A program made the translations under genes and the position numbers. The notes beneath the pieces were generated by a model. It saw only the letters and a list, made by a program, of their open reading frames with translations. It had not been told where the DNA came from and made no database searches. From the IMG/VR virus record IMGVR_UViG_3300023179_000258, positions 1 through 38,092 of that record: a stretch of 38,092 nucleotides of DNA; one strand, given 5' to 3'. This document shows, piece by piece, positions 7,008 through 37,103 of the stretch. Each line of letters begins with the position of its first letter. Within the stretch, counting starts at the first letter, position 1. This stretch comes from a virus.

Positions 7008-10000
7008 TTATGCAGGACAATTCATAGTTATCTGCCAGAAAGTGCCAGAAAGTGGTGCAAACACAGCAATATAGGCATATCTTGGTGATGCTGTCTTGGC
7101 AAAAGTTATCCCTGGTGACGAGTTACTGGGTCCAAAATCACTGGCAGTAAGCGGGGAATGATTGATTGTTACGCCTTGTATTACATGAGATCCCGGTAGA
7201 TTGGCTAACTCGGTGTTGATGTCAATTGCCAGCTGTGGATAATCACTTGGATTCAAATTAGTAACATATCCCGAATCAAAAACAAGAGTGCCATCATATA
7301 TAACTACAAATCTATCAGGTACAGAAAAAGCATCAAAAGTGAATGTAACAGTCCCGGTAGTACCAGATCCTAAATCAACCCTAAATTCGCTTGGGAATGT
7401 CGGTCCACCATTATAAGATACTGCTGCGGGGCATGGGTGTTGATCAAAACTATATGGTGCTTCAGTAGTTGTTGTAGTTGTTGTGCTGCTAGTACTTGTT
7501 GTACTAGTAGTAGACGTTGAAGTAGAAGTTGTACTAGTAGTAGACGTTGAAGTAGAAGTTGTACTAGTAGTAGACGTTGAAGTAGATGTAGAAGTTGTTG
7601 ATGTTGTTACTGTGGCAACAGCTATAGTCAGAGCATGACTAGGAAGATTTGGATTTCCAACAGCATCATTAAATTTACTGTCATCTATATACAATTTGAT
7701 AGATCCGTTTGTATTAGCAGTTGGTGTTACTTGAACTTTATACAAATTATCGCGAACAGATCTAAAATTGCTTAAAACTCCATCACCGGTCACTGTGATA
7801 TCACTTAGATTAAAATTAGACGTAACGTTTGATGTAATAATCATAACATTGGTTGTTTCGCCATACGTCAGGTACTCGTCATCACTGAACATTGATACCC
7901 AAGGTCTTCTAGTATCATAGTATAATGTTAAGTCATTACTACTGGTGTTTGGATTACCGTTAGCACTAGTGTACGCCGCGGCTTGAACATTAGCAACAAT
8001 ATTACCGGTGAGTCCTTGAACATTGCCCTTAGCCCAACCTTCGGTGCCTGTCTTAATTATTTGTTCGTAAGCTGGAACTTTAAAATCACTTGAAACTAAG
8101 ACTCGAGCATGAGTGACATACATGGCTTCGTCGATTTGTGGTTGATCTGCACCAAAATACATATATAGATTAGCAGTGGCAGCAGTGTGATTTATCCAAC
8201 CTGTATCTACTATAAAATAACCATCCCTGGTGTCTCCAGTCCAAGGACTATAACTATAGGTATTATTGTCTACCCATCTAAACACAGAACAAAGATTTGT
8301 AGTTATGTCTGCAGGCGATCCTGCAAAACTGTTTCTAACAAACTTAAGATATTTTACTCCATCAATAGTAAGGGTATGCTCTTCACCATCAATGCTGTCT
8401 ACAAAATGCCAATAAAAACTATATCTTAACTTAGTATGTGCCGGTAAACTAGGTACCTCTAATTTAAATCCAGTAAGTGGTGTGTAGCCGTGTCCGGTTC
8501 CTGCACCTAATGATCCATATGTCATATTATAAGTTGTACTAGGCGTCCATAGGCCTAATGTGGCTGTGGGATCAAGACCCTCGTCAACTAAAACAGTAGA
8601 GTTGTGCTTGTAACCAATAAACACATGACTGTAACGTGTAGCGGTCCATGTATCAGGACGTATTCCCCCAAAACTATCATTGAGAACATTTCTCAGTCCA
8701 ATGTTACAAGCTGTAGCATCAAAACTTGTCATAACCAATAAATTACCAGTGGGTATAGCAGTAAGATAATTCATTAGATCACCAACTTCGGTGATACTGC
8801 CAAAAGTGTCTTTGGTAACAGTGCCGTCTAGATCAAACACATTTGTATTTGATTTCACGTCAAAATAAGCCACAGTATGGCCTCGACCAATAGTTCCGAT
8901 TGAGGTACCATTTAACTTGATGTAACTGACAAATTCCTTGGAAGGTTGATCATAATTACTGGCCTGAACTTCGATTTTGTCAATTGCACCAGTATAATTG
9001 GCAGTATATACTTTGTTTGAACCAGAAAAATCACTTATGTTACCAAACCCAACTGTGGTAACATTAGCCAGCTCGAAACTATCAGTTTCAATGTTACTGG
9101 TAAAAGTTATTTGGCTAACATTACCATAACGTACAAATGATGTATTTGATGTGATTGTCATAGACGGTATACGAGTATCAACATCAAATGTATATACATT
9201 GCTAGGTCTATTAAAATTTCCAACAACATTTGTATAGGAAAGAGCAGCAACATTAACAGAAATATTACCGAGCCAATTAGTTCGAGGGATAATATTTGCA
9301 GTGTAGATAGAACCAGTTATTGATTTAAAATCAGTATCTAGAGTTCCATCTCCGACTATCGTAATATCTGCACTGCCGAAAGTACCAGTGGCATTTGAGC
9401 TTGTAAATGTTATGTTAGCCTTTTCTCCGGCAATTATCATAGGATCTGTGCCGGATACGACCATCTCTGGCCTTATTGAGTCAACATTTAAAGTAACTAC
9501 GCTAGAATTTTTATTCCACGCACCATTAATTCCTTTGACTGCTCTTGCTGGAACAAAAATACTATATGAACCTATACCATCTAATGTTGGAGTAAAAAAT
9601 GCAGTCGCATAGGTATCACCCGGAGTATACGAAAAAGATCCCAAAGATCCAAACCCAGCAGCAGTTACATTTGCTAGCTCAAAACTAGTAAGAGGTAAAC
9701 TAAAATTAAATGTGATAAGTGGCAATTGGTGTGCAAGTATAGGATTTGGCAAACTTGAAGAAACAGTTATAGTTATAGGAACTGGTGGTTCTGTGGTGGT
9801 TGAAGTTGTACTTGTTGAGGTGGTTGTAGTAAATTTAACACGAGGTGCCGGTGGTGTGAAATAACCCGCGGCCGATTCTGTAATGGGTAAAGCTCCGGCT
9901 CTGTGATAATGTGTGAACGTAACTGACTGAGTGGTTCCAACAAGCCCGGCTCTGAACACAAAACGCTGTTTTCCTGGAAAAGAATCTGCTAGACCAGCAT

Positions 10001-10576: not shown

Positions 10577-13500
10577 CTATACGCTATAGTTTGATCCGCC
10601 TTTGCCGCCGGCCCCAGCGTAGCCGCCAGCTCCGCCGCCGCCTGCACCTACATCAAACACTGTGGTATTATCATGGGTGCCACCTTCACCGCCATTACCG
10701 CCGGTTGTTGTACCAGTAAATACTCCGCCTAACGGCTTTCCAGGTCTTCCACCGGTTATAGTACTGGTATTTAAACCACCTTTACCACCACCTGCTACGA
10801 TTCCAAATCCTGTAGAATCTTCACCATCACCAAAATTTATGTGGCCATTAATATCACTCTTACCACCAGCAGCAACCACAAGTGTATACGGGGTGCCAGC
10901 TGTTACAGAGATGTTATTCTTCCAAGCTAGAGCACCTCCACCACCACCTTCACCACCACCACCAGTGCCGTTAAACCCAGCACCAGCACCACCTCCGCCA
11001 ACTAACACTACGCAAACACTGGTTACACCTGCTGGTGGTATCCATATTTGTTGACCCGGAGTATCAAAAATAGCCTCTTGTGCTGGATCTGAGGCAGCAT
11101 TAATTGGGAAACTACGCCCTGTGCCCCAGATAATTCTTATAGCACCGTCCCCGCCGTCCCCGCCTTTTCTATTACCAGCCGAGCGATCGGCACCGCCACC
11201 GCCACCGCCATATTTGCCACCATTACCGGATTGAGCGTTTGCTCCTGTACCAATAGCTCCTGGGTCACCACCACTACCGCCTTCGCCTCCGAGAACTTTA
11301 AAATTAGGTTTACTTCTATCTGTGTTCCAATTAACTCCACCAGAACCACCGCTGGCTCCTTGGCCAAATAAACCAACGCCACCACCACCGCCACCAGTTT
11401 CATTTCCGCCCAATGATCCGCCACCTCCGCCACCACCACTACCGGCTGTACCTTCCATTACACCACTTGGTCTTGTGCTCGGACAACCAACAATTAAAGT
11501 TTCTACCACAGTCGGATTTGGGCTACATACGTAGTAGCAAGTCACAGCTACCGTTGCCCCAGCAGCTACTTTTCCAATGTCCCAGCCAACCCCCATACCA
11601 AAATCACCGTCCCCGTCATTACCACCAGCTAGGTACACATCTATATTATAACTCGGCCAAGCTGCAAACACAGCAGCATTATGGTTGTAACCGTTGCCTG
11701 ATGTGTAAAGGCTTAATGGAGCGTTTTGTGGGCCCACAGAATTGACAATATCAGTGGCCGGAATAGAACCAAAACCTCTTGTATTCTTAGAGAATGTTCC
11801 ACCGTTATCTGGATCTAGGCCACGGCAAGCCCTGACCGAAACCTCACTTGCAGTAGTATTCTTGTAGGCCATTCTTATTCGTATAATTGGTTCTCCGGGT
11901 AGAGTTTTATATTCTACTACTAAATCACCCACAGCTGAACTCTTTGTTATCACAGTATGATTAGCAGCTATTGAGTAGGCCGTGGCCGAACCAGTTAACT
12001 GATTTATATTATCTCCACCGAAATTGGTTTTTGTGCCACCTTGAGTGATTTCAAAACAGAAACCTTCCCATGGATAACCCGGAGCGATAAAATCTCCTCC
12101 ATAATTGCTGTCTCCATTAGGAGCAAATTGAAGCCCAGGAACAGTTCCGCCTTGACCTAATGCTCCTGTTCCGACTCCATTTACGGAATATTTGATCCAT
12201 TCATTGTAATGAATGATAGCACCAGAGACTGGTGTACCAAAATTGTAACCAGGATTTTGATTCGTAAAGTTAGCATCAAATTGTGCTAATCCACAAGATG
12301 GCCCAGTTGTGGTTGTTGTCGTGGTTGATGTAGTAGTAGTCGTAGTTGGCGGAGAAGGATAACGCGACCTAGTTGCGTAATATAAAGATTCTATCTCAGA
12401 CGCAGACAATTCTTTATTGTAAACAAAAACCTCACTGATGTCACCGTCAAATTCGTATGAATCGGGTGTTGATATAGGATTAGTGTTGTTAGCCCATGTT
12501 ATACCTATACCAGCAGTTCCTGAAGTGGCCGGGGGTTGAACTTGAGTAAGCGTCCTAACTATACCATTGATATACAATTTATTGAAACCAACATAGGTGC
12601 TTCCACCTGTGGTATTATGGAATACAGCAGAAACGAAAACCCATGAATCTTTATATAAATCCATCGTGGATGACGAAACACCATACAAATCACCAGCACC
12701 ATTATTGAATCCTAGAGCTCCGCCGGGCATCCATAACCTATAACCTGTTTTCCATTCCATCGGAAAACCACCAGTATCGCCACCTGCTCGCCAACGCATC
12801 CACATATTAACCGTATTATAACCGCCAGGTGTTGTATTAATACCGGTCATTGAAGTTATTGAGCTGGCACGATCTTTTATATTGGCACCAAAATTAAATT
12901 TAAAATTACCGCGTACGATGTCGTTCCATATTGGACTATTATCTAATAGAGCAAAATTATTTTGGTTACTGGTCAAATCATACCATACATTACCGTCAAG
13001 CATGACATTCTGTGTGCGGAAAAATACTTGTTTTTGTTGCCCGGATAATAAAGAGAATGTATTAGGAACAATGGTAACAGACGAGTTCTTAGGTGCTTCT
13101 ATTACATCTATCACAATATTATTCAAGACACCATCTTCACCGCCATTAATACCGACAGCAAATGAGTCACTGGTCTCAACCGGTCTTTCTACAAAAGGTA
13201 CTTCAATTGTTGATTCCGTATTACCAACTAATTGTAATACCTTAGGCCCAGGAGGTCCTGCTGTTGTTACTGCTGCTGGGGTAGGCGGGGGAGTTGCTAT
13301 TTCAGCTACTCTAATAGATAAACTATCGTAAATGGTACCCGGTAATAACTCTTCTGGAGAGTGACTAAACAATCTATCAACGAATTTACCACCAGCAACT
13401 TTGATATTGCCCGAACTTATACCTACGTTTGAACCAAATGTGTCGCCAACTAGGATAGTATCATTTACTTGTCTAACATTACCCACTATGACAGGATTCA

Positions 13501-16500
13501 ATGGGTTAATGCCAGGAATTAGTTGATATAGAACTTTGGGTATTACGTTGTCTTCGGTTTGAACATAGAAGCCCATTGTTCTATCATTGGCATTATCAAA
13601 ATCCTTTGCAGCAACAGGAGAAACAAAGACTTCTTCTAAGACATTGGTTGATGAAAAATTAGTGTTAACAAAATAAGCACGACCTTGGTAACTTATATAT
13701 TCTCCAGCAATAAAATTGCTGAATGGTGTCCATTCACGTATTTTTGTTGTGTATTGCACACGATCAAACTTTAAAGTTGTGTTAACTTTTCTAACAGTTT
13801 TATTAGTTAACTTGGGTGTTAGAATAGCCGAACCCGGCATTTTACTTGTAGGTAATGCTGGAGTAACAACCTTAGTTCCACGCCAATGAAAACCATCATA
13901 AACCCAACTGCGTTCTCCGTAAGTATAAGTTTGGCCTTTAGTGACACCAGCAGGCAAATTAAAAGGTTGTGCAAATACATAGTGCCGTGGGTCAGAAGAT
14001 AATGCGGCAAAGTAACCTTTTTCAATTCTAAAAGAAATGCTGCAATATGCATCGTCTGTGTTATCACCAGAACCTGCATAATGTTCTATACCACGACCGG
14101 TGCCACATCCAGGAATACCAACTAATATATAACTGCTTCTGAATTTGAAATTGTCTGAGATTCCTGGTTTACCAAATACTTCTACACTGGCTCCGCATCT
14201 CTGCATGGCAAGATGTAAGTTGTTAGATAATCTATTATTTTTTGGCTCGTCGTATGTATGTACCACAACTACGTAATCATCAGTTGTGGCATTTAGATCA
14301 CGAACTAGGTCAGCAGTAGTATAACCTGTGTAATTTAAGTTATTTTGCAAGTATGCATCATAAAATCTTGAAAAGGCAACGTGACCGTCAGCTCGTCTAA
14401 TACGATGCATATGATAGCCACGCTGACGAGTTTTCCATTTGACATCGGCATATGGACCATAGTCAAGCAAATCACTAACAGCAGGTTCAGTGCCATCTAC
14501 TTCTTCAAATCTTGGATATGCGAATTGGGCTCTCGTTGAAGTATTGGTTGAGTAATTATGGTAAACACGCTGCATCGCCTGTGTGGCATTTGGTGGGAAT
14601 TTACCATCATCAATTGTACCTGTATTGCTATAGACTCTACCTTGACTGCGTGTGTATATACCACTGTCAGGGTGGTTAGTAATCCCAGTATGGTTCCGCG
14701 GGAAAATATAACCAATGTGTAAATACCATTCACCTAATGAATAGTCACTGATATTTCTAGCGTTCCATACAGGATCGGATTCGCCTTGTCCATCAACTAG
14801 TCTACGTACACTACCTGTGGGAATAACAGACCCCGCAGGAGTCGGCCATGATCCATCTGTGTAAAGACCATGGAATAACATGCCGCTCGATGTTCCTGAA
14901 TTTCTACGCATCCAAACAGCACTACGATAAGTCTTGTTGGGGTTAATTGCAAAATATGTTGTTGTATAACCACCATCACTGTTTCCATCACCGGCTGGTC
15001 GAGTTTCCCAGACAATGTTTTTCATTTGCCAAGGATCGGTATCTCGCACTCTAAAGTTTTCTGCCGACGTACCGTTTTGTATGAAGTTCGTTAAACTACC
15101 ATATCCAGTAGTCCATTCAGAAACTTTAATCGATGACCTAGCTGTATTCTTTATTAACGAATTCTTATCAAAGTTGCCGTATAAGCCAAAAGATAACTTA
15201 GTATCTCTACCATTAGTGAAGTAGCTATAACCCTGCGATACCACTGTGAATACATATTTGTCATCGTCTTTGGGTCTGTTACTACCTACACCAATAACTT
15301 TAACTATTGGAGTAGAGGTATAATTCTCCCCGGCACGCTCCATATAAACTTTATTGATACCGAAATTATTAGTATCTAGTTTAACAACAGCATTGGCTTC
15401 AGTACCAGCATTTATGTCAGTTCTTAGAATTTCTATGTCTGGAACAATTTCAGAACCATCAACAAAATTTTGATAGCCGTATCCCGAACGTGAAATTTGT
15501 AATTCGTCTATAGAATATCGATGATTAGCTCTCCATTCTGCATATTCAGGACGTTGGATACGAACTAAATCAATGTCAGGATATGTGCCATCTGGGCTAC
15601 GATATATCCCAAGTTCGCTGTCATAATAGGCAGGTAAATCAAAATCTGTAACTGCACTGTTAAGAACTTCAATATTCTCATATGCAGCAATAAACTCTCT
15701 TATCTTTGTTCTATAAGGTTTAATTTCACTGACATAGTCTTCTACATTTTTTTGATAATCATTTATAGTACTGGTTATCTGTGATAGTTGTTTAGTTATG
15801 TGTTTTACAGAAATAAAACTAGTCTTAAAGAACCAATCTATATACTTTTGTTCAGCTAAAATATAATCCACTAGACTAAACAACATTTTAGTATATTCGT
15901 CTTTTAACTCATTGATAAAGATTTCTTCTTTTAAACCTAATAAGATATAACGAAATTCGAGATCTTTACGATTATCGTAAACGTCTACATCAAAATCAAA
16001 CGAATCAAATCCCTCTGTCCCCGATACTTCATCTAAAATTTGAATAGTTTTCTTAGCTAGCCCGATTAGAACAGGGTAGAATCTCCCACCTGGGCTAGCA
16101 TTAAAACGATACATCTCCCAGTCGCCCAGTGTCTCTTCGTAGTCATTGATTATGTTACCATATGCACGAATGGTGTTTCCTGCATTTTTAACTAATACTA
16201 TATCGCCATCTTTTAAAGATAGTCTATAGATATCTTTAAATTCACCTACGATATGATCAGGCAATGTTTTATTGTCATAGCCAGTTAAATACCAATCATG
16301 GTATTCCCATAATTGGGTAACATCAAAACTCTGTTTTCTGATTAAACTTAAAGTGGTATTTGCTGGAGTTGGGTACTGACCGACTACACCAGTTCTACTG
16401 TACAAACCCCATAAGCCACCCAATGATGAATCATTCCTAACTAAAATTTTTATCACCGGATAAATTTGCTCGGGATTATAAATTTGGTCTTTAGTATCAA

Positions 16501-19500
16501 CTGCTACTGTGTATGAATTAACTTCCGGCTCATCTTCACTGGCAAAAAAGTTATCTGAAAAAATTCTATTATCATTGATAATTTTTGTTACCACTGGGTA
16601 TTGAATTAAAATATCATTTATATATTTGATAAGATTTTTTCTAGCTCTTTGGCGATCAGAAATTAGAGTTTGGTTGGGGCTAATACCCAATCCTATACGC
16701 TTTTGTTCGAGCAACAGCGGATTTGGGACAAGATTATTTTCTTTGTCAGAACCAACAACACTATCAATAAGTTTTTTCTCTAATTGTTCAGGAAAACGAA
16801 CTAATGGATTACCATCCTGCAATAAAACATAATCACTGTGAATAATTTGATCAGTTACCAATAACTTACTAGAAATATAAATGGTAGTTTCATCGCCAGC
16901 TAGATATGAACCGGCGTTATACACGGCTACTGCATCATCTCTCAATGCAGCCATGTATGGATACCCATGACTAAGCGGATCTCTAATCATCGACTCCAGG
17001 GATACAGTGCTATGAGTTTTATTCTGCGCAGATTTATTTGAACGAGATCTCACCCAGAAGAAATATTTGGTCTTGAAAGATCCAGTCTCTTTATCTAAAT
17101 ATACTGTATCAGTGTAATATTCATTGTTTGGATACAATGGCTCGCCTTCTAATCCTCGAGCTACATGAACCGTTGGTAACACATCACTGGCATACCATTC
17201 ATATACTTGAACTTTGCTTCCCGGGAACATGGCTCCCCAGTTATCAATTCTATATTTTAGATTACCCTGCTCGTAATCCAAATATCTACAACTATCAGTA
17301 TTCCACCAATAGGTGCCAACTTGATCTTGTCCCCAGAATACTTCTTGACTCCAATATAAATCAGACGTCGAGTCAGTGTTTCTATAAGAAGCTGGATCTC
17401 TATTAGATATAACATCTATCTCAGCACGAGCAGCACTGAGAATCCTTCCTTTGGCAGGATCAAACAAATCCACTCTTGAGAGTATTTGCTTGTTTTTATT
17501 GTTGTAAAGATAGATGTTATTAATACTTTCGATGTCTACAATAAGATTAGCTGAACGTAATTTAATATAATCGTAAACTACAGATTCGATGCTAGTAGTA
17601 TTTTCTTCTACAGTGATTAATTCGCCACCTATTTGAGCGTCACGAGCTAAATCTTCTTCAGTGGGAGTTTCTATTGTATAATACAGATCTTCGTTTTCTG
17701 AAGCTGAGAACACACAGAAATTAATAACATCTTCGTACTCGGCACTGTTAACTATTGAATTAGCTATTTCACAATTTATACCTACAATATTATAGATGTT
17801 GGCAACTAATAAATTACTGTAAAAAACGTTTTGGTATTCGAAGTTTGCTATAGAGGGCCTATAGACTGACCAAGAATTTGGAGAGTCGACTTCATCTACA
17901 TATATATTATCTTTAGGCAATCCATCGGGCAAAGCATATTTGTTATCTGCCATCCATCCATATTTTGGCTTGTAGGCCTTTAGTTCAGTTAGATTTTTAA
18001 ATCTTAAACGTTCTAAATCAATTAAATCGGCAGATTTATCTGACACTTCAAAGTCAATGTCTAACCCAGACTTAACAACTGTGATTTCTAATTCTGTTGT
18101 ATTAAAAATTTGATAAAAGCCATCAACAGCAGTATCTACACCGCGTATGGCTATCATATCAGCCGGTTTGCAATTATGTGCAAAACTTGTTGTTATAATT
18201 AGTTTATTATCTAAATCAGATCTTGCTGATAAAATCTTAACTGGAGCTATATATGAACGATAAACTTGCCAATCATTGTCAAAATCTTTAGCTACCCAAA
18301 TTTTATACCCTGTAGATAGACTAGATAACAAAGTACTATCAAATTCAGCATACTTTCTAATGTCAAATACAAGACTGTCGACTTCTTCCAACAAAGGATA
18401 CCCAGCACTCTTGATGTCATCTTCGTAGTACTTAAATTGACTAAGTATCTGATCATTTATTGCTTGTCGCACCACAGGCTGTAAAAGTTCTTCAACTATT
18501 AGCCTATATCCTTCCTGTGTTGGATGAATTCCATCGATGTCTAAATGATTTTTTAATTCGATATAATTATAAACATCAACTATATAATCACCATAATCAT
18601 TGGCTACTTCAGTCATTGCCTTAGCATATAAACTTAAATTATTTGTGCCGACTGGCATGAAATTAGTATATGGATTGCTAATATCAATGTTTATAGGTGT
18701 TTGCCATATTACAATCTTTTCTTTAGGCAATAGTTCACGCAATTGTTTAAGATTATTCTTATAGTCAACTACCGACACACCATTACGTGCATCATTTAAG
18801 CCATGGTTAATAACAACAATTTCTGCTTCAATACCATCAGGCCATGGACCATTAACACCATCAGTCCCTTGTAATAAAGTACCGCTTGTTGAATTACCAA
18901 CAGACCTTGTCAATACTGCAAGATCAAATTCTTTTTCTAAATTTTTAAATAATAAGAAGTCGGGCGGTTCCGCAACCCTACCAGTTACTTTATCTCGCAG
19001 ACACACTTCAGGTGTATTGATATCCCCTAGTCCTAGGGTAACTACACCGGGCTGTTCTTGTTCTGCAACTTCTTCAATTGACCAATAAACATCTTCTTTC
19101 TCAAATAACGATGTAACTTCAACAAAAAAATCTTGCCCCATTAATAACTCATCAGGTGAGTATGTAATACCTTCAGCTGTTGATGTAAGAGGGACATCTG
19201 GGTATAAGGCAGGTTCTAAAGAAACATACAATGGTTCAAATATATCATTAGATGTTAGAAACAAAGATAATTCTGTTCCAGCCGAGACATTATCAGTTGA
19301 AGCATATATCAATTCGTCACCGGGCATAGTAGATAATTCTCGATCATTGGCCGTCGGAGTTTCAATGCTCACAAATAAAGGTTCATTTGGATAAGCTGAT
19401 GTAAAATAAATTTGAAAACTATTTTCTGAATCTAGCGATTTAATAAAGTTTTGATCAAATGGACCAGTAACACTGACACTATAACCAGACTTTTGTCTTA

Positions 19501-22500
19501 CATCAATTGAATACCCATGACGCTTGACAACATCAACGGCATAACGATCGGTTTCGACCTGTTTGCCACACATTGTGCTGTCACCGAACAACTCAATTCT
19601 CCAGAGTTGTTTTTCTAATACGTTTCTATTTCTAAAAATATGTCGACTATAATTGTCCGGATACAGTAATAGATCTCTAGGCTTGATACCTATAGTCAAC
19701 TCGTTTTCTGGTTTTTGATTTTTATCTACCATTTGGTAGATCAATGGATTATTGTCAATAATGCTATTCTTAATAATGAAACTAAATTCTGGATTGTTGT
19801 CTATTGATCCATAGACGCCAAGTCTTGCTCCCCATTCTTCATAAATTTCAATAGCATTTTCTACATTGTTAAAAACACCACGTTCAAATGCTGTGACAGC
19901 ATTCATCGTACCTTTGTCTCGAATAAACCCCTGGTAAAACTTAATTTGCGATACAGAATCTAATCCTAAATTATTAAGATAACTTCTTGTACGGTACCCA
20001 ATTAAACTGTTACTGTAGACAGTAAGATTTTCATCATATGGCAATAAATCTACATCATATATATCAGTGAAAATAGCAGCATTTTGGCTAAAGTTTGACA
20101 ATAGTCCTTCTCTAAAACTTGAATCTAATCTAGCCCAGTATGAGAAGTTAAAACTATCAGATCCATCAATGTCACGCAAAGCACTGTAATATCGACTCTT
20201 ATATTGAACTATTTCGCCTTTCTTATAATCATAATTAGCTTGCCATTGGTCGACGTCACCGTCAGAATAAACAAATCCCGGAGGTGTTAATTCACCATCC
20301 CAAGAATTTGTAACAGATCCCACAATCTTTAAACGTTGTTGTCTATCACCAACTTCGGGCTTGTATAAAATATCATTGAAAATACTTATGTTATCCAATA
20401 ATAATACATGCTCGTACTGCACTAAATTCAAACGCACCATTCCAATGGTTTGCCCACTAATGGTAGAAATTGTCGTACGTTTATTATCACGGAGTACAGT
20501 GAAATCGTTATTTCTAATTATGTTAGAATTTGTTCCTAATAATTGAGATCCGTACGCATAATTATCTATGTGATCTACCACAAAATTTTGTGAGTAAACA
20601 TGAATAGTGTCTACTATAGGACTTAGTACAAGTATATTACCCGAATCCCAGCCTTGTTTGGCCCAAGTTACAAACTCCTGTACACTGAGACTAAAATTTC
20701 GAACCTGTTGCAGGTTTTCATCATAAGTGTCAAAAACTATACCCTGAGCAGATAAGTACCTTTGATAACTGACTAAAAAATCAGCCACTTGTTGCAGAGT
20801 TACAAATTCAAAGCCATATGGGATCTTAATTTTTTGTGGTAAAAACTTTTCAAAAAATACAATATTTTCGCCCAATACGTTTACTTGTAAACTAGTACCA
20901 TTAGTTTGGCTAGGAATAATTGTAAAATATGGAAATTTTTGATCGTATCCGTTTACACTAAATCCTCGGCTAGTTCTTTCAATAATCACAGCACTGTAAC
21001 TAATGCTCTCTATTGGTAAACTTTTGTTCAAATATATTGAATAACTTTCTTCGGGTATGACCAAACTACGACTCTTACTAGACAGACTAATTTGATTAGC
21101 TAAAACATTGATGTAGTTTTTATTTGTAAATCCACCAAACTTGTAAGCTAAATTTAATTCAGAGTTATTGATCAAATCTCTGATACTGACACCGGCATCA
21201 ATACCTAGTCCGACAAGGTAGCCGTGTATCCAATTTATATAACTTGCGGCTCTTTGAGTGGCACCATCTTTAGTTTCACCGTTAATTAATGTGTCCCTAA
21301 AGTCTAATCGTTTTGAAGTACCTTTTATTACATACTGATTTATACGAGAGTTAAATGTTGTATTATAACTATCTAAGTAAAGTCCAAAATATTGAGCAGG
21401 TTTTAATAAGGCGAACGCACGTTGTTCGGCAAAAGCATAATCACTAGACCTTGCCCATGCTGCTTCGACTGGCCCGTAATCACCAATAGAAAAATTGCCA
21501 GATAATCTAGCACTATCAAAACCAGAAATTAAAACCTGTTGTGGGGGCAACAAACGACCATTTGCATCAACTGGGACGACTTGGCCGAAACCTGCTCTTG
21601 CATAGGATATATTAACAGTAGTAAGATAAGTTGAAGAGGCAGGACTAGATATCCTGCCATTCTCTATGGCTGCAATCAAGCTAGCACGACGGTCAGTATC
21701 TTGCCAACTATAATGATCGTCCCACCACTTTGGCTTAATTGTGTACCCTAACATTTCCCAAGGGTGAGTATGTGGTCTATCAGTATCAAAATAATAACGA
21801 TAGATACCCCTCCAATAACCAGGAATACGATTGTTATCTAAGTCTCTAGCTTGGCTGTAATTCCACGACCATTCATCGTTTGAATTGAAGAAACTATTAG
21901 TGGTGTAATCTAAACTGTTTTCTCCTACCCATCTTAAAAATTCTAAACTTAAAACAGAATTAAATTCATTTCTTGAATATTCAGTTGTTCTGAATCTGCC
22001 TGGTATATGACTACGGCGATTAAAAAGTCTTTCAGTATACCTTACTTTAATGTTATTATAAATTCTTGTTTCTAATTCTAAAATTAATAAGTCTCTGATG
22101 TCATTGAATGCCGGTACAATACTGCCATCATGGCCCTGTATTACATAGATAGGTGTCGAGTAACTTTCATCGAATATTTTCTCAGGAGTATACTTGGGAT
22201 ATAGTCCGAGTTTGCTCGGTGTTTCGGGCACGTAACAACCATCTGTGTCATAATATTCTTTTATGGTTATTACATCGCCCTCTCTCAGGGTAATTGCATT
22301 TGTCAATGTCAACAAAGCATTATTAATTACATAATCTTTTTCTATTACAAGAATTCTATTATTGACATAAACTATAACAGCTATGTTACTCGGGGAATCT
22401 GAAAATGTAGACGTAAGATTATAAACCGTCTGAACTACACTAGTAACACGGCGATTTGTTATATTAGTGCGTTTTCCAAATGGCACCATATCTGAATAAT

Positions 22501-25500
22501 GCCAGGCAAACTTGTCAGTTTTTATTTCCGTAAATTTTTCTAAGATTTCATCAACAATAAACGGAACTTCATTTATATCTCTGTCTAAATAATTGTTTAT
22601 AGCATCAAAAAATTTATTCTTAAATCTTGTGTATTCTTTACCAGCATAATCAATAGCATTGATGAAATTGATTTGTCGATTTGTTAAAAATGCTAGAGCC
22701 GGAACAATGCTAGCACTATGTTGTTGAATAGTCCCCGGGACATTTCTATAATTTAAATCGCGAAGGTTGTTAGACTGAAAAACATTTCCTTGTAAAAATC
22801 TATTGTTTTCGCCAATTTTTTTGAGATTGTTTCGTAATTGCCCAAAAGAAATCGTGTCAACCGTATCATTAAAAGGATTATTTTCTAAATTACTTGGTAT
22901 TTCGTAATACCCAAATGGCGTAGGATCTGCGTAGACAAATATATCAATCTTATCGCCTTTAGTTAATAAGGTATAATCTATTACAAGGGCGACTCTTTCT
23001 CCAACATATTCTGTTCTATACTCAGGATTATCATAATTGGTCAATAGGAGCTGTTCACTATTAACAAAAACTTTTACATTTGGTCTTTTACTTATTGGAC
23101 TCCTTGGCATTTTGCCAATTTCAAAGTAATTTGTAACAGCATCATATTCGGCCTTAATATGTTGGTACTGTCTTGAATTTTCTCCCAATGTAGTATAGTT
23201 ATTCAACACAGTAGAAGAATATCTTCCGGTTATTTTTCTTAAAAAACCAACACTGACATTTAAACTTGCTTTGTTTTCTAACATTAAAACAGTTGTATAA
23301 TCAAATGTATCCGAATCAAAATTGTTATCAAATAAAATGTCGCCAGATAATTCTGTGTCACCTGAATATACTAACGGAAATTCTAGTACACTGTCATTAG
23401 CCCCTTTAGCAATTTTATAACTAAAAACTTTAGAACCTGAAAAGTTACTGTTGTCATAAGCAGTGCTTAGACTTTCACCTCGGGTATCGATAACGTCAAA
23501 TAAAGGTGCTTGGTTAATTGTTGTTTTTTGTTGAGCACTGTGCCAAGCATTTTGATTATAATAAAAAGATTTGCCCCTGTTATAACCATCAGTTACAGCT
23601 ACTATATCAAAGTCATTGACTGTGGCTATTTCGGCTAAAGTTACTCTAGATTTATTATATCTTACACCACTGATATTATTATAGATAATATTGGATGCTT
23701 CTTCTAGGATTGCTTCAGTGTTGCCTTTAATTTCTAATATCCTACCGATATATGAATTATTAGATTCATATAAATCATCCCCAATTTCGAGCTGATTAGC
23801 AAAATTAGTACCGGTTCCGATAATTCGATCGTTTTGGATAAACAACGTGCCAGTTAAAATTCCATCAAACACCACCGAAGCATTTTGATCCAATCTATTA
23901 ATCTGATATATTTTCTTTCTTACAATATCTGACTTATCATTTGAAAAAATTACACGTTGTCCATTAGAAAAGACGAAGCCTAACTTTTCTAGATCTGCAA
24001 ATTTTGTACTGGAAATTATAGCTAACGCATTGTCAAAAACTTTAACTTGCCCACGATCCGCATAAGTAAAATCATTTCTATAGAAATGATTAACGAATCC
24101 GGCAAATATTCTGCCAGAATTAAAAAGCTGTAGGTCAGCATCAAATTCAATAATAGGACGTTGAGCGTTTAAAAAATTGCTTAAGTCTTCTTGGTATCCA
24201 TTTCTACGCAAAGATTCGATTATAACGTCTTTGTGAAACCAACGATTAACACGACTCCATGCGTTTTTATCAATGCTAGATCTATTAATGACTATATAGT
24301 CAGGAATTTTTGAGCCCGAAAATGTTTCATCAAACTTACCAACATCAAATTGCTTGACTTCAAATGCTGTTTGTACTAAATTTTGCACTACTTCTGGGGC
24401 TATTAAATTGTCAAATTCAACTAATCTTATACCGGTTCCTACACCTTCAACAATATATGTTTTGTTATGATACTGGCTAGGTGTAACAGTTGTATCAAAT
24501 GATACTTTCATCCCGTTAGATAGTGTAATACCATCTGGTGTGGTATAGGTCAAGGCTCCTATGATATTGTTTACATTAATCGTCTCGTATGCTCGATCAA
24601 TTAACTCAATTTCTCCATAAAAACCACGTCTACTATGTTGATAAAATAAACGACTGCTTTCGGCTGTAATTCCGTTAAATTCTATAAACTGACCTGAATT
24701 AACTGTATATTCTTTACCTTGTTTTAGACCACGATAGATTTTAATTCTAGTGTTTTCAGGAATTGAACGCACGTAAGTCAACTGCATTCTAGCTGGTTGA
24801 CCTGAATACTTTATCATATCGATACGCCATATTCCTTGACGACGATTAGCGGGTACCACTGTGCCTGTTCGATCGATCCAATCAGCATTATTTGTACTAT
24901 TTGATAATAATATTATTTCTGTGTTATCTGGGTAAAATTGTTCGCCATCAAGTTGGCTGTTCATGCCGTCACCAAAAGTCCATATAACGTTGTCTAGACT
25001 TGCGAATGTTGTGTCTAGTGCATATTCAACTTGGTCGATCTGCGGGAATCTTAAAAAGAAATCTTGTGCTGATTCCTTTGGTGGTGTAAAAGTTATACTA
25101 CTGGTGCCATTATTAACCACTCCTGCTACTACTCGACTACTAACGCTAGGGGCGTATGTCTTTGTACCAGTAATAGTAGGTTCAGTTTGTATAAACAAAT
25201 TACCTAAAACTGAGCTAACATTGAATGTATAAGTAACTCCTCGTTGTAAAACAAGTTTAGGATTTAATGTAACACCAGCAACGTCTACTGTATAAGCGTA
25301 CGATTGGTCAATAAAATTATATGTAGTACCAGGATAAACTTGTTTGGTACCAATGCGTATTTCTTCTGGTCCAGCTGGCAACCAATAATAGTTTTTGTAA
25401 TTAATTAATTTATCTAAATCAATGGGAGGTGTGTACGCATATGAGATATTATTAAATAGTCTATCATGATTATTTGTTACCCCACCAAAATAAGTAATCT

Positions 25501-25780
25501 GGTTGAGTAAGTCTTGATAGTTAGCAAAATTCTCTGTCTTACCAAACTTGTTTTTAGTGACTAACCCAACTTCTAACTGATAGTTTTGTCTTGTACGGTT
25601 GGGTTCGACTAAGTAATTTTCTGTAGATGAACCATATGTTCTACCAATATAACCATTAACCTTCTTGAAATTGGGTTCACTGACTAATTGATCTAAGGTA
25701 CTACCTAAGAATTTCTTATTAGCATCACTTTGAAATATTCCTGGTAATAATTTTACAGTTTTTCTACTAACGGCCATCAT
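10577..25780 (-). CDS. Giant multidomain baseplate/tail-fibre protein (5067 residues) with an SGNH-hydrolase domain
   Basis: One open frame of 15.2 kb. The position right after gp6 and the head (VKLLPGIFQSDANKKFLGST) match very large baseplate-type proteins of aquatic T4-like phages, in the gp7 slot. Order by residue: attachment head (1-145); cupredoxin-like sandwich (about 150-240); long conserved structural part with HPWEMLGYTIKPKWW (about 1335); SGNH-hydrolase domain (about 2060-2445: GDS 2066-2068, Gly2295, GLND 2327-2330, D2416-H2419) split by three 47-49-residue repeats; carbohydrate-binding-like module (about 3560-3780); ILEI-like domain (3785-3905); LamG-like domain (about 4264-4471); poly-Thr hinge (4478-4495); beta domain; and two glycine-rich regions (about 4768-4881 and 4908-5067). 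ATG 25780 or 25777 could be the start; GGA fits the second slightly better. Inference: a baseplate arm that binds and de-esterifies a surface glycan. The gp7 equivalence is by position only. Confidence 0.85.
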   Translation of the reverse strand: MMAVSRKTVKLLPGIFQSDANKKFLGSTLDQLVSEPNFKKVNGYIGRTYGSSTENYLVEPNRTRQNYQLEVGLVTKNKFGKTENFANYQDLLNQITYFGGVTNNHDRLFNNISYAYTPPIDLDKLINYKNYYWLPAGPEEIRIGTKQVYPGTTYNFIDQSYAYTVDVAGVTLNPKLVLQRGVTYTFNVSSVLGNLFIQTEPTITGTKTYAPSVSSRVVAGVVNNGTSSITFTPPKESAQDFFLRFPQIDQVEYALDTTFASLDNVIWTFGDGMNSQLDGEQFYPDNTEIILLSNSTNNADWIDRTGTVVPANRRQGIWRIDMIKYSGQPARMQLTYVRSIPENTRIKIYRGLKQGKEYTVNSGQFIEFNGITAESSRLFYQHSRRGFYGEIELIDRAYETINVNNIIGALTYTTPDGITLSNGMKVSFDTTVTPSQYHNKTYIVEGVGTGIRLVEFDNLIAPEVVQNLVQTAFEVKQFDVGKFDETFSGSKIPDYIVINRSSIDKNAWSRVNRWFHKDVIIESLRRNGYQEDLSNFLNAQRPIIEFDADLQLFNSGRIFAGFVNHFYRNDFTYADRGQVKVFDNALAIISSTKFADLEKLGFVFSNGQRVIFSNDKSDIVRKKIYQINRLDQNASVVFDGILTGTLFIQNDRIIGTGTNFANQLEIGDDLYESNNSYIGRILEIKGNTEAILEEASNIIYNNISGVRYNKSRVTLAEIATVNDFDIVAVTDGYNRGKSFYYNQNAWHSAQQKTTINQAPLFDVIDTRGESLSTAYDNSNFSGSKVFSYKIAKGANDSVLEFPLVYSGDTELSGDILFDNNFDSDTFDYTTVLMLENKASLNVSVGFLRKITGRYSSTVLNNYTTLGENSRQYQHIKAEYDAVTNYFEIGKMPRSPISKRPNVKVFVNSEQLLLTNYDNPEYRTEYVGERVALVIDYTLLTKGDKIDIFVYADPTPFGYYEIPSNLENNPFNDTVDTISFGQLRNNLKKIGENNRFLQGNVFQSNNLRDLNYRNVPGTIQQHSASIVPALAFLTNRQINFINAIDYAGKEYTRFKNKFFDAINNYLDRDINEVPFIVDEILEKFTEIKTDKFAWHYSDMVPFGKRTNITNRRVTSVVQTVYNLTSTFSDSPSNIAVIVYVNNRILVIEKDYVINNALLTLTNAITLREGDVITIKEYYDTDGCYVPETPSKLGLYPKYTPEKIFDESYSTPIYVIQGHDGSIVPAFNDIRDLLILELETRIYNNIKVRYTERLFNRRSHIPGRFRTTEYSRNEFNSVLSLEFLRWVGENSLDYTTNSFFNSNDEWSWNYSQARDLDNNRIPGYWRGIYRYYFDTDRPHTHPWEMLGYTIKPKWWDDHYSWQDTDRRASLIAAIENGRISSPASSTYLTTVNISYARAGFGQVVPVDANGRLLPPQQVLISGFDSARLSGNFSIGDYGPVEAAWARSSDYAFAEQRAFALLKPAQYFGLYLDSYNTTFNSRINQYVIKGTSKRLDFRDTLINGETKDGATQRAASYINWIHGYLVGLGIDAGVSIRDLINNSELNLAYKFGGFTNKNYINVLANQISLSSKSRSLVIPEESYSIYLNKSLPIESISYSAVIIERTSRGFSVNGYDQKFPYFTIIPSQTNGTSLQVNVLGENIVFFEKFLPQKIKIPYGFEFVTLQQVADFLVSYQRYLSAQGIVFDTYDENLQQVRNFSLSVQEFVTWAKQGWDSGNILVLSPIVDTIHVYSQNFVVDHIDNYAYGSQLLGTNSNIIRNNDFTVLRDNKRTTISTISGQTIGMVRLNLVQYEHVLLLDNISIFNDILYKPEVGDRQQRLKIVGSVTNSWDGELTPPGFVYSDGDVDQWQANYDYKKGEIVQYKSRYYSALRDIDGSDSFNFSYWARLDSSFREGLLSNFSQNAAIFTDIYDVDLLPYDENLTVYSNSLIGYRTRSYLNNLGLDSVSQIKFYQGFIRDKGTMNAVTAFERGVFNNVENAIEIYEEWGARLGVYGSIDNNPEFSFIIKNSIIDNNPLIYQMVDKNQKPENELTIGIKPRDLLLYPDNYSRHIFRNRNVLEKQLWRIELFGDSTMCGKQVETDRYAVDVVKRHGYSIDVRQKSGYSVSVTGPFDQNFIKSLDSENSFQIYFTSAYPNEPLFVSIETPTANDRELSTMPGDELIYASTDNVSAGTELSLFLTSNDIFEPLYVSLEPALYPDVPLTSTAEGITYSPDELLMGQDFFVEVTSLFEKEDVYWSIEEVAEQEQPGVVTLGLGDINTPEVCLRDKVTGRVAEPPDFLLFKNLEKEFDLAVLTRSVGNSTSGTLLQGTDGVNGPWPDGIEAEIVVINHGLNDARNGVSVVDYKNNLKQLRELLPKEKIVIWQTPINIDISNPYTNFMPVGTNNLSLYAKAMTEVANDYGDYIVDVYNYIELKNHLDIDGIHPTQEGYRLIVEELLQPVVRQAINDQILSQFKYYEDDIKSAGYPLLEEVDSLVFDIRKYAEFDSTLLSSLSTGYKIWVAKDFDNDWQVYRSYIAPVKILSARSDLDNKLIITTSFAHNCKPADMIAIRGVDTAVDGFYQIFNTTELEITVVKSGLDIDFEVSDKSADLIDLERLRFKNLTELKAYKPKYGWMADNKYALPDGLPKDNIYVDEVDSPNSWSVYRPSIANFEYQNVFYSNLLVANIYNIVGINCEIANSIVNSAEYEDVINFCVFSASENEDLYYTIETPTEEDLARDAQIGGELITVEENTTSIESVVYDYIKLRSANLIVDIESINNIYLYNNKNKQILSRVDLFDPAKGRILSAARAEIDVISNRDPASYRNTDSTSDLYWSQEVFWGQDQVGTYWWNTDSCRYLDYEQGNLKYRIDNWGAMFPGSKVQVYEWYASDVLPTVHVARGLEGEPLYPNNEYYTDTVYLDKETGSFKTKYFFWVRSRSNKSAQNKTHSTVSLESMIRDPLSHGYPYMAALRDDAVAVYNAGSYLAGDETTIYISSKLLVTDQIIHSDYVLLQDGNPLVRFPEQLEKKLIDSVVGSDKENNLVPNPLLLEQKRIGLGISPNQTLISDRQRARKNLIKYINDILIQYPVVTKIINDNRIFSDNFFASEDEPEVNSYTVAVDTKDQIYNPEQIYPVIKILVRNDSSLGGLWGLYSRTGVVGQYPTPANTTLSLIRKQSFDVTQLWEYHDWYLTGYDNKTLPDHIVGEFKDIYRLSLKDGDIVLVKNAGNTIRAYGNIINDYEETLGDWEMYRFNASPGGRFYPVLIGLAKKTIQILDEVSGTEGFDSFDFDVDVYDNRKDLEFRYILLGLKEEIFINELKDEYTKMLFSLVDYILAEQKYIDWFFKTSFISVKHITKQLSQITSTINDYQKNVEDYVSEIKPYRTKIREFIAAYENIEVLNSAVTDFDLPAYYDSELGIYRSPDGTYPDIDLVRIQRPEYAEWRANHRYSIDELQISRSGYGYQNFVDGSEIVPDIEILRTDINAGTEANAVVKLDTNNFGINKVYMERAGENYTSTPIVKVIGVGSNRPKDDDKYVFTVVSQGYSYFTNGRDTKLSFGLYGNFDKNSLIKNTARSSIKVSEWTTGYGSLTNFIQNGTSAENFRVRDTDPWQMKNIVWETRPAGDGNSDGGYTTTYFAINPNKTYRSAVWMRRNSGTSSGMLFHGLYTDGSWPTPAGSVIPTGSVRRLVDGQGESDPVWNARNISDYSLGEWYLHIGYIFPRNHTGITNHPDSGIYTRSQGRVYSNTGTIDDGKFPPNATQAMQRVYHNYSTNTSTRAQFAYPRFEEVDGTEPAVSDLLDYGPYADVKWKTRQRGYHMHRIRRADGHVAFSRFYDAYLQNNLNYTGYTTADLVRDLNATTDDYVVVVHTYDEPKNNRLSNNLHLAMQRCGASVEVFGKPGISDNFKFRSSYILVGIPGCGTGRGIEHYAGSGDNTDDAYCSISFRIEKGYFAALSSDPRHYVFAQPFNLPAGVTKGQTYTYGERSWVYDGFHWRGTKVVTPALPTSKMPGSAILTPKLTNKTVRKVNTTLKFDRVQYTTKIREWTPFSNFIAGEYISYQGRAYFVNTNFSSTNVLEEVFVSPVAAKDFDNANDRTMGFYVQTEDNVIPKVLYQLIPGINPLNPVIVGNVRQVNDTILVGDTFGSNVGISSGNIKVAGGKFVDRLFSHSPEELLPGTIYDSLSIRVAEIATPPPTPAAVTTAGPPGPKVLQLVGNTESTIEVPFVERPVETSDSFAVGINGGEDGVLNNIVIDVIEAPKNSSVTIVPNTFSLLSGQQKQVFFRTQNVMLDGNVWYDLTSNQNNFALLDNSPIWNDIVRGNFKFNFGANIKDRASSITSMTGINTTPGGYNTVNMWMRWRAGGDTGGFPMEWKTGYRLWMPGGALGFNNGAGDLYGVSSSTMDLYKDSWVFVSAVFHNTTGGSTYVGFNKLYINGIVRTLTQVQPPATSGTAGIGITWANNTNPISTPDSYEFDGDISEVFVYNKELSASEIESLYYATRSRYPSPPTTTTTTSTTTTTTTGPSCGLAQFDANFTNQNPGYNFGTPVSGAIIHYNEWIKYSVNGVGTGALGQGGTVPGLQFAPNGDSNYGGDFIAPGYPWEGFCFEITQGGTKTNFGGDNINQLTGSATAYSIAANHTVITKSSAVGDLVVEYKTLPGEPIIRIRMAYKNTTASEVSVRACRGLDPDNGGTFSKNTRGFGSIPATDIVNSVGPQNAPLSLYTSGNGYNHNAAVFAAWPSYNIDVYLAGGNDGDGDFGMGVGWDIGKVAAGATVAVTCYYVCSPNPTVVETLIVGCPSTRPSGVMEGTAGSGGGGGGGSLGGNETGGGGGGVGLFGQGASGGSGGVNWNTDRSKPNFKVLGGEGGSGGDPGAIGTGANAQSGNGGKYGGGGGGADRSAGNRKGGDGGDGAIRIIWGTGRSFPINAASDPAQEAIFDTPGQQIWIPPAGVTSVCVVLVGGGGAGAGFNGTGGGGEGGGGGALAWKNNISVTAGTPYTLVVAAGGKSDINGHINFGDGEDSTGFGIVAGGGKGGLNTSTITGGRPGKPLGGVFTGTTTGGNGGEGGTHDNTTVFDVGAGGGGAGGYAGAGGKGGSNYSV
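14040..14425 (-). other. ILEI/FAM3-like domain in the giant protein
   Basis: Residues about 3785-3905. Pattern: HVAFSRFYDAY, a TADLVRDL helix, DDYVVVVHTYDEP, a helix with LHLAMQRCGASVEVFG, then FRSSYILVGIPG. It has the same strand and helix order as the domain at 8565-8945 of the neighbouring gene, though the sequences are far apart. It directly follows a carbohydrate-binding-like module, an arrangement suggesting glycan recognition. Confidence 0.55.
18440..19600 (-). other. SGNH/GDSL hydrolase domain inside the giant protein
   Basis: Residues about 2060-2445. All four signature blocks are present: block I ELFGDST (Ser2068 nucleophile), block II Gly2295 in SVGNST, block III NHGLND (Gly2327, Asn2329), and block V DGIHPT (Asp2416, His2419). 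Around them are the usual strands (AEIVVINHG, KIVIWQTP) and a final helix (GYRLIVEELL). Known: this family removes acetyl or other acyl esters, and phage virions use it on capsule or O-antigen. Inference: an active virion-borne esterase. The spacing between blocks I and II (about 225 residues) is far larger than usual because of an insert. Confidence 0.85.
19070..19450 (-). repeat. Three tandem 47-49-residue repeats inside the SGNH domain
   Basis: Units anchored at Glu2140 (NEPLFVSIETPT), Glu2189 (FEPLYVSLEP) and Glu2236 (KEDVYWSIEE), each preceded by a TSA/TSN/TSL stretch. A fourth, separate copy lies at Glu2704 (NEDLYYTIETPT, near 17671), outside the SGNH domain. Each looks like a small beta unit. 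The repeats are at protein level; the DNA is diverged. No known family is recognised. Confidence 0.7.
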
Positions 25781-25787: not shown

Positions 25788-28700
25788 TCATACAGTAGCA
25801 GGTTGCAACTCTAGTGCAGTAATCGAATTTACAATTTCAACATCATCCACAGTAGCAGCACTAATTAACAACTCATAAGGCTCGCTGTTGATCTGATACA
25901 AGTTTCCAAATGACATATTGATATTCTTACTAGTAATTATGATCGCTGCAATGTTGGGAATTAGAGTTTTGTGCAAATAAGCCGCTAGTTCACTAAAATA
26001 AAATGTCTCACCAAAATCCCAATTGTCTGTAGAAAAGAACTCGTTTACCGCTGCAATAACCGATGACTTAATTTCGGCATCTGTTACATTGGCTCCGGGA
26101 TTCTTTACAACCTTAAATATAGATTGAAATTTAGGGTGTGCTTTTGATCCAAAAAGTGGTTTGTACACAGCACTTTGTATGACTATGGTATCACTTATAG
26201 CTTTGTAGTTTTCTAACTCACCGTACTTGTTTTGTAACTCGAGATCAGTTGGTGCAGTAGGCTCTACAACTTTTCCAGATGTATCTTCTAACCATAAACG
26301 ATAATTAGTTTCATATTCAGCAGTTAACACATAGATATCAATGATGTTGCTGATATTAGGATCAATTCTATTTGTATTTGGTGAATTGTGTCTATACTGA
26401 TATCTTAAATTTTGTCTTCCAACAAAATATTTGTAAATCGGGACAGAGGCGGGAGAAGTCCCATTTATACCCGGGCCGAGATCTTTGAAACCGAAACTGT
26501 TTAATTGACAGCGATAAAATTGTCTTTCACCTCGAGCGAAAAATAACTGCCCAACAAGGAAACTTTTAATTTCGGCTAATATTTCCGATCTTGTGTAGTA
26601 CGAATCTATAACTCGATTGTTATCTATTAGTTCATAGCTGTCATAACCGGTTGTGTTATTTTTTACAAGCTGGAAATATACTAAATCACGGTTGGTAATT
26701 TTGCCGTCTCTGAACATTAGTGCCTCGGGCAAACCATAAGTTAGACTGTCTATGTTATCGATGTCTATTTCGCCGGCTATAATTTGTCGAATATAAGAAT
26801 CTAGTTCTCGCTGCGAAGGATACCTACCAACATTCTTTTTAAAAATATAATTAATTCTAGTCGCCTGTTTTTGAGATATTAGACTGTTATAAGTTGTTCT
26901 GTACGGCGTTCCTGATACAACCTGCTCAAATAAGTTATAGTTGTCAGGTACACCATCTTGATTTGTATCTGCATAGGTTAGGTTAATACTCTTAGTTTCA
27001 ATATAACCATTTGCTCGTTTAATTTCTCGTTCAACAAACCAAGTAAAATCAGCTGTTAATCCACGATTAGCATCTAATATCTTAATTTTATCGTTAATTA
27101 CTTCGTTATTTACTGGATCATATATTTGCAAATCAGGATCATAGAAAAAGTTAGTTTCCCTAGGGCTATGGAACGTATATTTTAAGTTTTTATAACTAAT
27201 AATATATTTTTTCTGTACTCCGTTCCATTCAAACTTAATCCACCATGCATTGGGTTGCGTAAGAAGAGTAGCATCAACAATCGCCCAATTTTGCGAATCA
27301 TTCTTATAGATGAGACCAAAGTTTTCATTGGCTACTATCCTATCAACAACTTGGTCAACGATGAATTGACGTAAAGAATTCTTATAAACCGGAATCACTG
27401 ATTCTACCACAGCCCCGGTAGGTATTGATAAGTTTATTCTAACCGGACCAGTGCCATTCGAAAAGTTGCCGGTTCCGTTATTGGATCCAGCTCCAGAAAT
27501 CTGTGTAATGGCTGAATATAAAGCCATCGAATCGCCAGATTTTTGTACAGGACCTTTTACCATGTTTAATGATTGATTAAAATGGTACCCGTAGTCAGGT
27601 GCAAATTTAATTAAAGCACCGGTACTTAATACTTTTGTATCAGATTGTACGGTGGGGCCTATTGCAACTACTTCATTATTGTAAGAAAAATACCCGGTAG
27701 CTACACCAGTTTCAGTTGAACTCAAATTCCATTTAAAATTTGTTTTGACAAGGCCGGTTCCAAAGTCTTCGACTATGATTTTTCCAGCTAGATGGTTAGT
27801 TGGCCATGTTGTGGGACGATCGGCAAATAGTCCTCCTCCATTGCCCGGTAAGAATGGTTTATTATGTGTATATGGTCTTGTTGAATCAACAACAGCGGCA
27901 GTAAAAAAAGTATTGTAAAAATCTTCACTTTCAGCATCTTGATTACTTGATAGACTATTTGTAGTCCAGTATGCTAGATCACCGCGATTTGGATTCCTGT
28001 ATAGCCCATAACGCAATTCACCGTTTGGCAGTACATACTCATTATTACTATAATATAGAGGTAAAATTTTTAGAGCTTGTTGTCTATATACACTGGCTGA
28101 ATAACTGCCTCTGAACTCTGCAACAAAATCATCTATATTGTAGGCCCTACCTGTGTAATTTCTAGACACATAATAATAAGTACCCGGTGGAACATCTTTT
28201 GTATCCCAAGCCACTATGCCTGAACTAGAACCATTGTTTAAAACCGAACCCACTATTACATTACCTAATACTCCGCCAGTTAAAGACGATTTGATGTGAA
28301 GTGGCTGACCACTTAGATTGTTGATATTAAGTACTTCTCCAGTTTTGATTCTAATGATAGGATTCTGCATTGAGCCAACAGTGGTGACCTGATCCAAATA
28401 TCCAATACCAACATTAAGATAAGGATCGGCAACTGTTGCTGCAACAACTGTCAGTACATAACGTCTTACGGGGCCGTCTGTTATATTACCTTTGTAGGAA
28501 TGAAAAGTTACTTCATATTCGTATATACCTGGTTCAGTATAAGTAACCTGTCCTAATGCTCTAATGCCATCTTCACCGATAATTTCTGGTTCGGTCGTGC
28601 TGGGGTTTGGTGACCACGGGGGAGTGCCCGAGCCGGTATATTTTCTTTTTACTCTAAATAAAGCATAAGGAGGTGCATTGTAAATAGTTATGTTTGCATA

Positions 28701-37049: not shown

Positions 37050-37103
37050 ACCACAAAAATGGTTGTTTTTGTCCCAAATCTATGTTACTATTTTTATAGT
37101 ATT

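Follow-up and report, generated by a model that had tools for sequence, protein, structure and literature searches.

We analysed a viral DNA stretch of 38,092 nucleotides (IMG/VR record IMGVR_UViG_3300023179_000258, positions 1 to 38,092; hereafter the window) that carries, at the gene position of T4 gp7, a giant virion structural protein with an SGNH-hydrolase domain in its interior. We found that this domain is shared by a single clade of giants of this type, within which its catalytic residues have been lost repeatedly and the rest of the domain has been kept. The reading that we favour, and hold to be reasonably probable, is that it is a surface-glycan-binding module derived from a deacetylase, plausibly still active in this phage and dispensable as an enzyme. 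For the clade as a whole, the balance tips slightly toward repeated conversion of a baseplate esterase domain into a binding-only pseudo-esterase within one phage clade, with fold and active-site surroundings conserved; this would be a receptor-modifying enzyme-to-lectin series in which the window is among the few complete members.

SGNH Fold and Catalytic Residues

The giant protein, the SGNH module and its sequence blocks are located as follows.
10577-25780, minus strand: giant virion structural protein of 5067 amino acids, at the gene position of T4 gp7, 3′ of the gp25- and gp6-like genes
18434-19612, minus strand: SGNH module, residues ~2057-2449, inserted relative to sister giants; from PF13472, AlphaFold2 and structure searches
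19562-19591, minus strand: block I, LFGDSTMCGK, with the nucleophile Ser2068 and Cys2071
18884-18910, minus strand: block II region, TRSVGNSTS, in which the canonical glycine column is Asn2296
18788-18808, minus strand: block III, NHGLNDA, with Asn2329
18515-18544, minus strand: block V, LDIDGIHPTQ, with Asp2416 and His2419

In Pfam searches the domain matched PF13472 with an E-value of 5.8e-15 (56.7 bits, curated cut-off 32.9) and PF00657 with 7.1e-07. The GDS, GLND and DGIHP motifs occupy residues 2066-2068, 2327-2330 and 2416-2420, respectively, with Ser2068 in the context ELFGDSTMCG, Asn2329 in NHGLNDA, and Asp2416 and His2419 in DIDGIHPTQ. On the intact sequence the PF13472 match starts at profile position 24-25, past block I, because 227 residues part Ser2068 from block II. 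When 180-190 residues after block I were deleted in silico and PF13472 was rescored (splice test), coverage extended to positions 1-178 of 178, beginning with the GDS strand, and the score rose from 57.3 to 62-64 bits. In homologues that lack the insert, block I stands a short way 5′ of block II, as in L107 (IELFGDSIMCGR, 46 residues between the blocks).

An alignment-based AlphaFold2 model gave a predicted local distance difference test score (pLDDT) of 90-98 for the SGNH core, block I strand included, with a helix that starts from the serine (Ser2068, residue 29 of the model). A single-sequence model of residues 2040-2460 reached a pLDDT of 34 and was discarded. Compared with the solved SGNH lipase 1yzf, the alignment-based model scored a Z of 21.5, with a root-mean-square deviation of 2.3 Å over 182 of 195 residues; since the matched model range was 20-403, blocks I and V are both predicted to lie in the superposition. 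Superposition on solved SGNH enzymes ran from close to their first residue to close to their last; among the nearest folds were carbohydrate acetylesterases and two phage tailspikes, 9d81 and 9d84. The splice test, the homologues without the insert and the AlphaFold2 model together indicate that Ser2068 is the nucleophile of the domain. Chance motif matches were rejected by the profile, the splice test and the fold, and an alternative nucleophile inside the insert was likewise rejected, as we found no GDS-like motif there and no Pfam match for the insert.

These results bear on a first-pass annotation of the same DNA, which had placed a complete SGNH catalytic set at 18440-19600, in a baseplate-type protein of 5067 residues, and had proposed profile and structure-prediction searches as a check. 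Both checks came out in its favour, with a profile match above the cut-off and blocks I and V together in the modelled superposition. The location is confirmed, the actual domain being slightly wider (~18434-19612), and Ser2068, Asn2329, Asp2416 and His2419 were correctly placed. The block II glycine was assigned to Gly2295, one residue before the canonical column: the oxyanion glycine of separate or free-standing relatives (e.g. GVSGTT) aligns to Asn2296. In SGNH enzymes this glycine serves as a backbone NH donor, and the backbone NH of Asn2296 could stand in for it. The ‘GN’ arrangement is shared by the window with intact domains of close relatives, L107 and L108 among them, so Asn2296 need not abolish activity; the block II glycine is also replaced in known SGNH members such as SpOatA (PMC9487903). 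Judging from its residues, the domain has probably retained catalysis in this phage, with O-acetyl removal by Ser2068, His2419 and Asp2416.

Distribution of the Domain and Loss of Catalytic Residues

The blocks of the giant that flank the SGNH module, and from which its relatives were traced, are the following.
19613-23623, minus strand: conserved core block 5′ of the insertion site, residues ~720-2056, containing the 521-column tree block
17831-18433, minus strand: conserved ‘AGY...DV...WVAKD’ block past the insertion site, residues 2450-2650, aligned in relatives

A close-relative scan using the raw domain found nothing, and PF13472 revealed no SGNH domain in the giants of 50 records around the core-based relatives. 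Matches in relatives’ genomes (L088-L093) were to small separate proteins below the cut-off, not to a giant-borne domain. The possibility that the domain is unique to this giant was overturned by an alignment-based scan, which located it at the same place in giants of other environmental phages. A second scan, which used the neighbouring core block only and was thus unbiased toward intact SGNH motifs, found further giants; we consider it the fair sample for counting losses because scans with SGNH motifs favour intact members. The two scans and L177 together yielded 20 distinct giants. In a tree built from one 521-column block of the core, these formed one clade (support 100/98), and giants without SGNH formed its sister clade (100/99). 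Looking for the same domain at the same place in related phages, as the first pass had suggested, thus succeeded within one clade; the giants of the sister clade and of named phages (see below) lack it.

Of 13 separate or free-standing SGNH relatives, at least 12 agree at each of 23 columns, and we scored these columns in the 20 giants. All 13 of these relatives are intact at Ser, Asn, Asp and His. Among the giants, 49 of the 80 cells in the four catalytic columns hold the conserved residue (Ser 10/20, Asn 8/20, Asp 18/20, His 13/20), as do 371 of 380 in the other 19 conserved columns. Only the giants of the window, L098 and L102 have all four catalytic residues (3/20), and in the core-block set just one of 15 distinct giants keeps all four. 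Nine giants have Gly in place of the serine and one has Asn, for which about four changes are needed on the tree; counting any catalytic residue, there are up to eight losses if regain is excluded. His is replaced in 7 of the 20, all of them also without Ser. L099, one of the giants with Gly at the serine position, nevertheless shares ~85% identity with the window over the adjacent core. Every record tested passes the Pfam cut-off, and no second SGNH domain was seen on the contigs with a broken one, all of which are fragments. In most lineages of the clade, this pattern of substitutions indicates selection on the fold and the active-site surroundings and not on catalysis.

With the serine lost in half of the giants and all four residues present in 3 of 20, de-esterification cannot explain the clade-wide retention of the domain, and the earlier proposal of de-esterification at docking does not hold as a general mechanism. 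For the window taken alone, a docking-time deacetylase would be a fair reading. In its full form, this reading says that in this phage the domain is an active de-O-acetylase that shaves a surface glycan enzymatically at docking, and that the losses in relatives are adaptations to hosts without that acetyl group. The complete residue sets of the window, L098 and L102, the 13 of 13 separate or free-standing relatives intact at the four positions, and the activity of tail SGNH proteins elsewhere as esterases all fit. We nonetheless regard it as unlikely, given the scarcity of complete members among the 20, the Gly for Ser in a relative as close as L099, and the Asn at the canonical block II glycine of the window itself. 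Alternatively, the SGNH fold may be kept as a mere structural building block that neither binds nor cleaves anything in a long protein. Giants of this type do contain many tandem modules, and the decay of the catalytic residues would fit; however, the near-complete conservation of the 19 non-catalytic columns, among them those of the G.DG.N..WP and NHG motifs, and the joint travel with an ILEI-like domain described below make this very improbable.

A Nested Insert and a Cysteine Pair

The insert in the SGNH module and a related repeat are located as follows.
19004-19561, minus strand: nested insert between block I and block II, residues ~2074-2259
17591-17785, minus strand: fourth, divergent insert-type repeat outside the SGNH module, residues 2666-2730; blastp E 2e-4 to the insert

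The insert of ~190 residues consists of three tandem beta-type repeats of ~48 amino acids with the pattern ‘F.V..TS....E.LY.SIE’ and motif starts at 2122, 2171 and 2218. It is modelled by AlphaFold2 at low confidence (pLDDT mostly <50). No profile match pointed to a CBM35 domain, and the fold of the insert is of low confidence. The insert is missing from two of the giants (L210, L245) and from L107-L112, and the gap between blocks I and II measures 98 residues in L105, 152 in L177 and 213-238 in the other clade giants apart from L210 and L245. In a Mu-like tail SGNH protein of Shewanella phage MuM16-2 (L096, 2038-3840), blocks I and II are likewise far apart, by roughly 190-200 residues that would seem to be a nested insert of independent origin at the equivalent position.

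Cys2071 and Cys2260 flank the insert. Both occur in the separate proteins and in 19 of the 20 giants, the exception being L099, which has neither. Since they are present or absent together, a Cys2071-Cys2260 disulphide in a phage tail protein is suggested. The position of Cys2071, three residues from the serine, might instead be taken as a sign of substituted chemistry, such that the Ser-less members have another nucleophile or a transferase role and the domain is enzymatic throughout; altered oxyanion holes or transferase activity are found in several SGNH families (PMC9487903). We give this almost no credence, as the covariation of Cys2071 with Cys2260 across the insert, up to their joint absence in L099, suits a disulphide better, and the seven giants with His replaced have no Ser either.

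Insertion Site, Exchangeable Modules and the ILEI Partner

In L155, the giant of which lacks SGNH, residues 4-2064 align to window residues 5-2056, and the alignment picks up at 2064 with window residue 2450. Like the other closest giants without SGNH, L155 is uninterrupted across the site (...PLFSNRPMNEYFETDIKTAGYISIDD...), and the window reads ...HIFRNRNVLEKQLW, followed by the SGNH domain of ~390 residues and then DDIKSAGYPLLEE. Among 49 non-redundant SGNH-less giants, the variable stretch between the core blocks contained FG-GAP_2 (41/49), CBM_5_12 (6), YHYH (1) or CBM_X2 (1), any of which might serve in surface binding. A close SGNH-less relative has a YHYH domain (3.9e-29) in the giant’s second variable stretch (L016, 6027-8273).

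At a second joint of the SGNH-clade giants lies another domain.
13961-14461, minus strand: ILEI-like (PF15711) domain, residues 3774-3940; Pfam 1.4e-07

This domain occurs in 10 of 10 SGNH giants compared (the window and nine others) and in 0 of 9 SGNH-less giants compared. Because SGNH and ILEI are present or absent together, although at two different joints, we conclude that they travel as a pair, which a common glycan target would fit; ILEI/FAM3-type domains can bind N-acetylglucosamine (PMC9802357). In the phages G045, G046 and G049, a separate protein of ~1370-1640 amino acids contains the same SGNH domain without the insert and, after it, an ILEI-like domain; by their giant protein, G045 and G046 fall in the sister clade. 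Across the sister phages, the separate proteins with SGNH and ILEI side by side measure ~1250-1640 residues. The contrast once drawn between a placement in the giant and one in a fibre tip is therefore weak. As for a possible bacterial donor, relatives number only three, in metagenome-assembled genomes of Betaproteobacteria, at 36-38% identity. In L107 the SGNH protein is followed by a gene with a segment similar to the LCCL-type C-terminus of the window protein encoded at 3749-6988.

The Giant Protein and Its Gene Neighbourhood

Baseplate-type genes adjoin the giant gene in the window.
25788-30575, minus strand: gp6-like baseplate wedge protein (phrog_10646, E 1.9e-280)
30604-30996, minus strand: gp25-like wedge protein (PF04965, 2.9e-08)
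31007-33229, minus strand: gp5-like spike/hub protein with an OB-domain match (phrog_13211)

The giant open reading frame (10577-25780, minus strand) is uninterrupted over 5067 codons and matches phrog_10938, a virion structural protein, with E 1.1e-230, with a further match at E 7.9e-73. Blastp to six named phages identified same-position orthologues in 121Q, RaK2, PA5oct, SCTP-2, Vibrio 2.275 and Phosso, the giants of which have 3323-4555 amino acids and no SGNH domain; identity of the core block (~720-2056) with other jumbo-phage giants is 25-47%. The gene order gp25-gp6-giant is that of RaK2/121Q/PA5oct-type jumbo phages. A comparison with hhalign of the core block A6 profile with the single T4 gp7 sequence gave a probability of 0.1, and the ‘gp7’ label is positional, from gene order only. 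The first-pass annotation had the domain in the middle of a giant at the gp7 position, which stands as regards the neighbouring gp25 and gp6 homologues and not as regards a profile match to T4 gp7. It was right that the spike protein lacks a lysozyme: Pfam found no lysozyme domain in the gp5-like protein, the notable matches being Phage_base_V and DUF2345, both sub-threshold. Its suggestion that the virion tip may owe its main enzymatic activity to the SGNH domain is at best partly supported on a 38-kb fragment.

The C-terminal third of the giant contains ILEI-like (3787-3891), Laminin_G_3 (4319-4463) and glycine-rich phrog_4474-like (4907-5062) domains with Thr-rich linkers between them. Downstream lies a protein of 1184 amino acids (7008-10562) without a PHROG match, in which Pfam-type searches recognised four Big_12 Ig-like domains and, below threshold, a second ILEI-like domain. 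The next protein (3749-6988, 1079 amino acids) has a C-terminal LCCL-domain match (2.3e-05), which to our knowledge is unexpected in a phage. An edge-truncated open reading frame (3-1754) encodes GLEYA and PA14 domains, which are typical of adhesins. The sole large plus-strand gene with a family match (37063-37980) encodes a late sigma factor (phrog_12791).

Comparison With Known Systems

The RaK2/121Q/PA5oct-type giants (phrog_10938) have core blocks orthologous to those of the window in the same gene order and differ by the absence of SGNH. Hemagglutinin-esterases, in which the lectin domain occupies a different position within the fold, combine a discontinuous SGNH domain with a binding domain, as here, and are likened by architecture, not homology. 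In these proteins a non-continuous SGNH domain is joined with a receptor-binding domain (PMC9487903). SGNH domains of phage receptor-binding proteins (tail fibres, tailspikes) have been shown to be deacetylases or esterases (PMC13123978; PMC11654681). Such proteins, including G7C gp63.1, Moo19 gp82, B2 gp48/49 and Klebsiella prophage SGNH receptor-binding proteins, are alike in having SGNH in a virion protein acting on acetylated surface polysaccharide, and the model matched 9d81 and 9d84 with Z 18.7 and 18.1, respectively. These, however, are stand-alone receptor-binding proteins for which activity has been shown or proposed; in the window the domain is inserted within a giant at the gp7 position, and in most relatives it lacks one or more catalytic residues.

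In the peptidoglycan O-acetylesterase Ape1, a CBM35-like domain (residues 104-221) is nested between Ser80 and Gly236 (PMC6174289), the same place as the window insert, and its structure (4k3u) matched our model with a Foldseek E of 4.2e-6; the window insert differs in being built of ~48-residue repeats, for which no resemblance to CBM35 or to a Pfam or PDB family could be detected. The C-terminal domain of PgaB, which kept ligand binding after catalysis was lost (PMC7828330), and other pseudo-esterases resemble the module as binding domains derived from esterases. PgaB has a CE4-related fold and is a single cellular protein, whereas here the losses recur within one phage clade.

A Probable Binding Module Derived From a Deacetylase

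In the reading that we favour, an SGNH carbohydrate-esterase domain would have joined the giant gp7-position protein in one jumbo-phage clade, at a preferred joint between core blocks. The domain belongs to a subfamily whose other members occur in secreted bacterial lipoprotein-like esterases and in the large separate protein encoded by sister phages. Nested in the loop past the nucleophile, as the CBM35-like domain is in Ape1, it carries a beta-repeat insert that varies in size. The main selected role may be to recognise an acylated or acetylated surface glycan, with the ILEI-like domain, as the baseplate nears the cell; catalysis would be an option that most relatives dropped, leaving a binding-only pseudo-esterase.

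Several points weigh against this reading. The window and its close relative L098 keep the whole triad, and selection may well act on catalysis in this lineage. A domain without the block III Asn need not be inactive, as other SGNH families have different oxyanion holes (PMC9487903). The nested insert has a match in neither Pfam nor PDB and no recognised fold. As to the ligand, a glycan is a putative substrate or binding partner of the SGNH module; exposure of the module on the baseplate is suggested by gene order, and transfer from the separate protein to the giant, rather than the reverse, by parsimony over few genomes.

Automatic annotation would name all of these domains ‘GDSL hydrolase’, yet most of them cannot use the classical mechanism. 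The clade provides a testable series of intact and broken members, including the close pair of the window and L099, with which one could ask whether deacetylation is needed or binding only. More broadly, the giant gp7-position protein of jumbo phages would be a carrier with preferred joints for swapping surface-binding modules, and one and the same module can reside either in a baseplate-region protein or in a separate protein.

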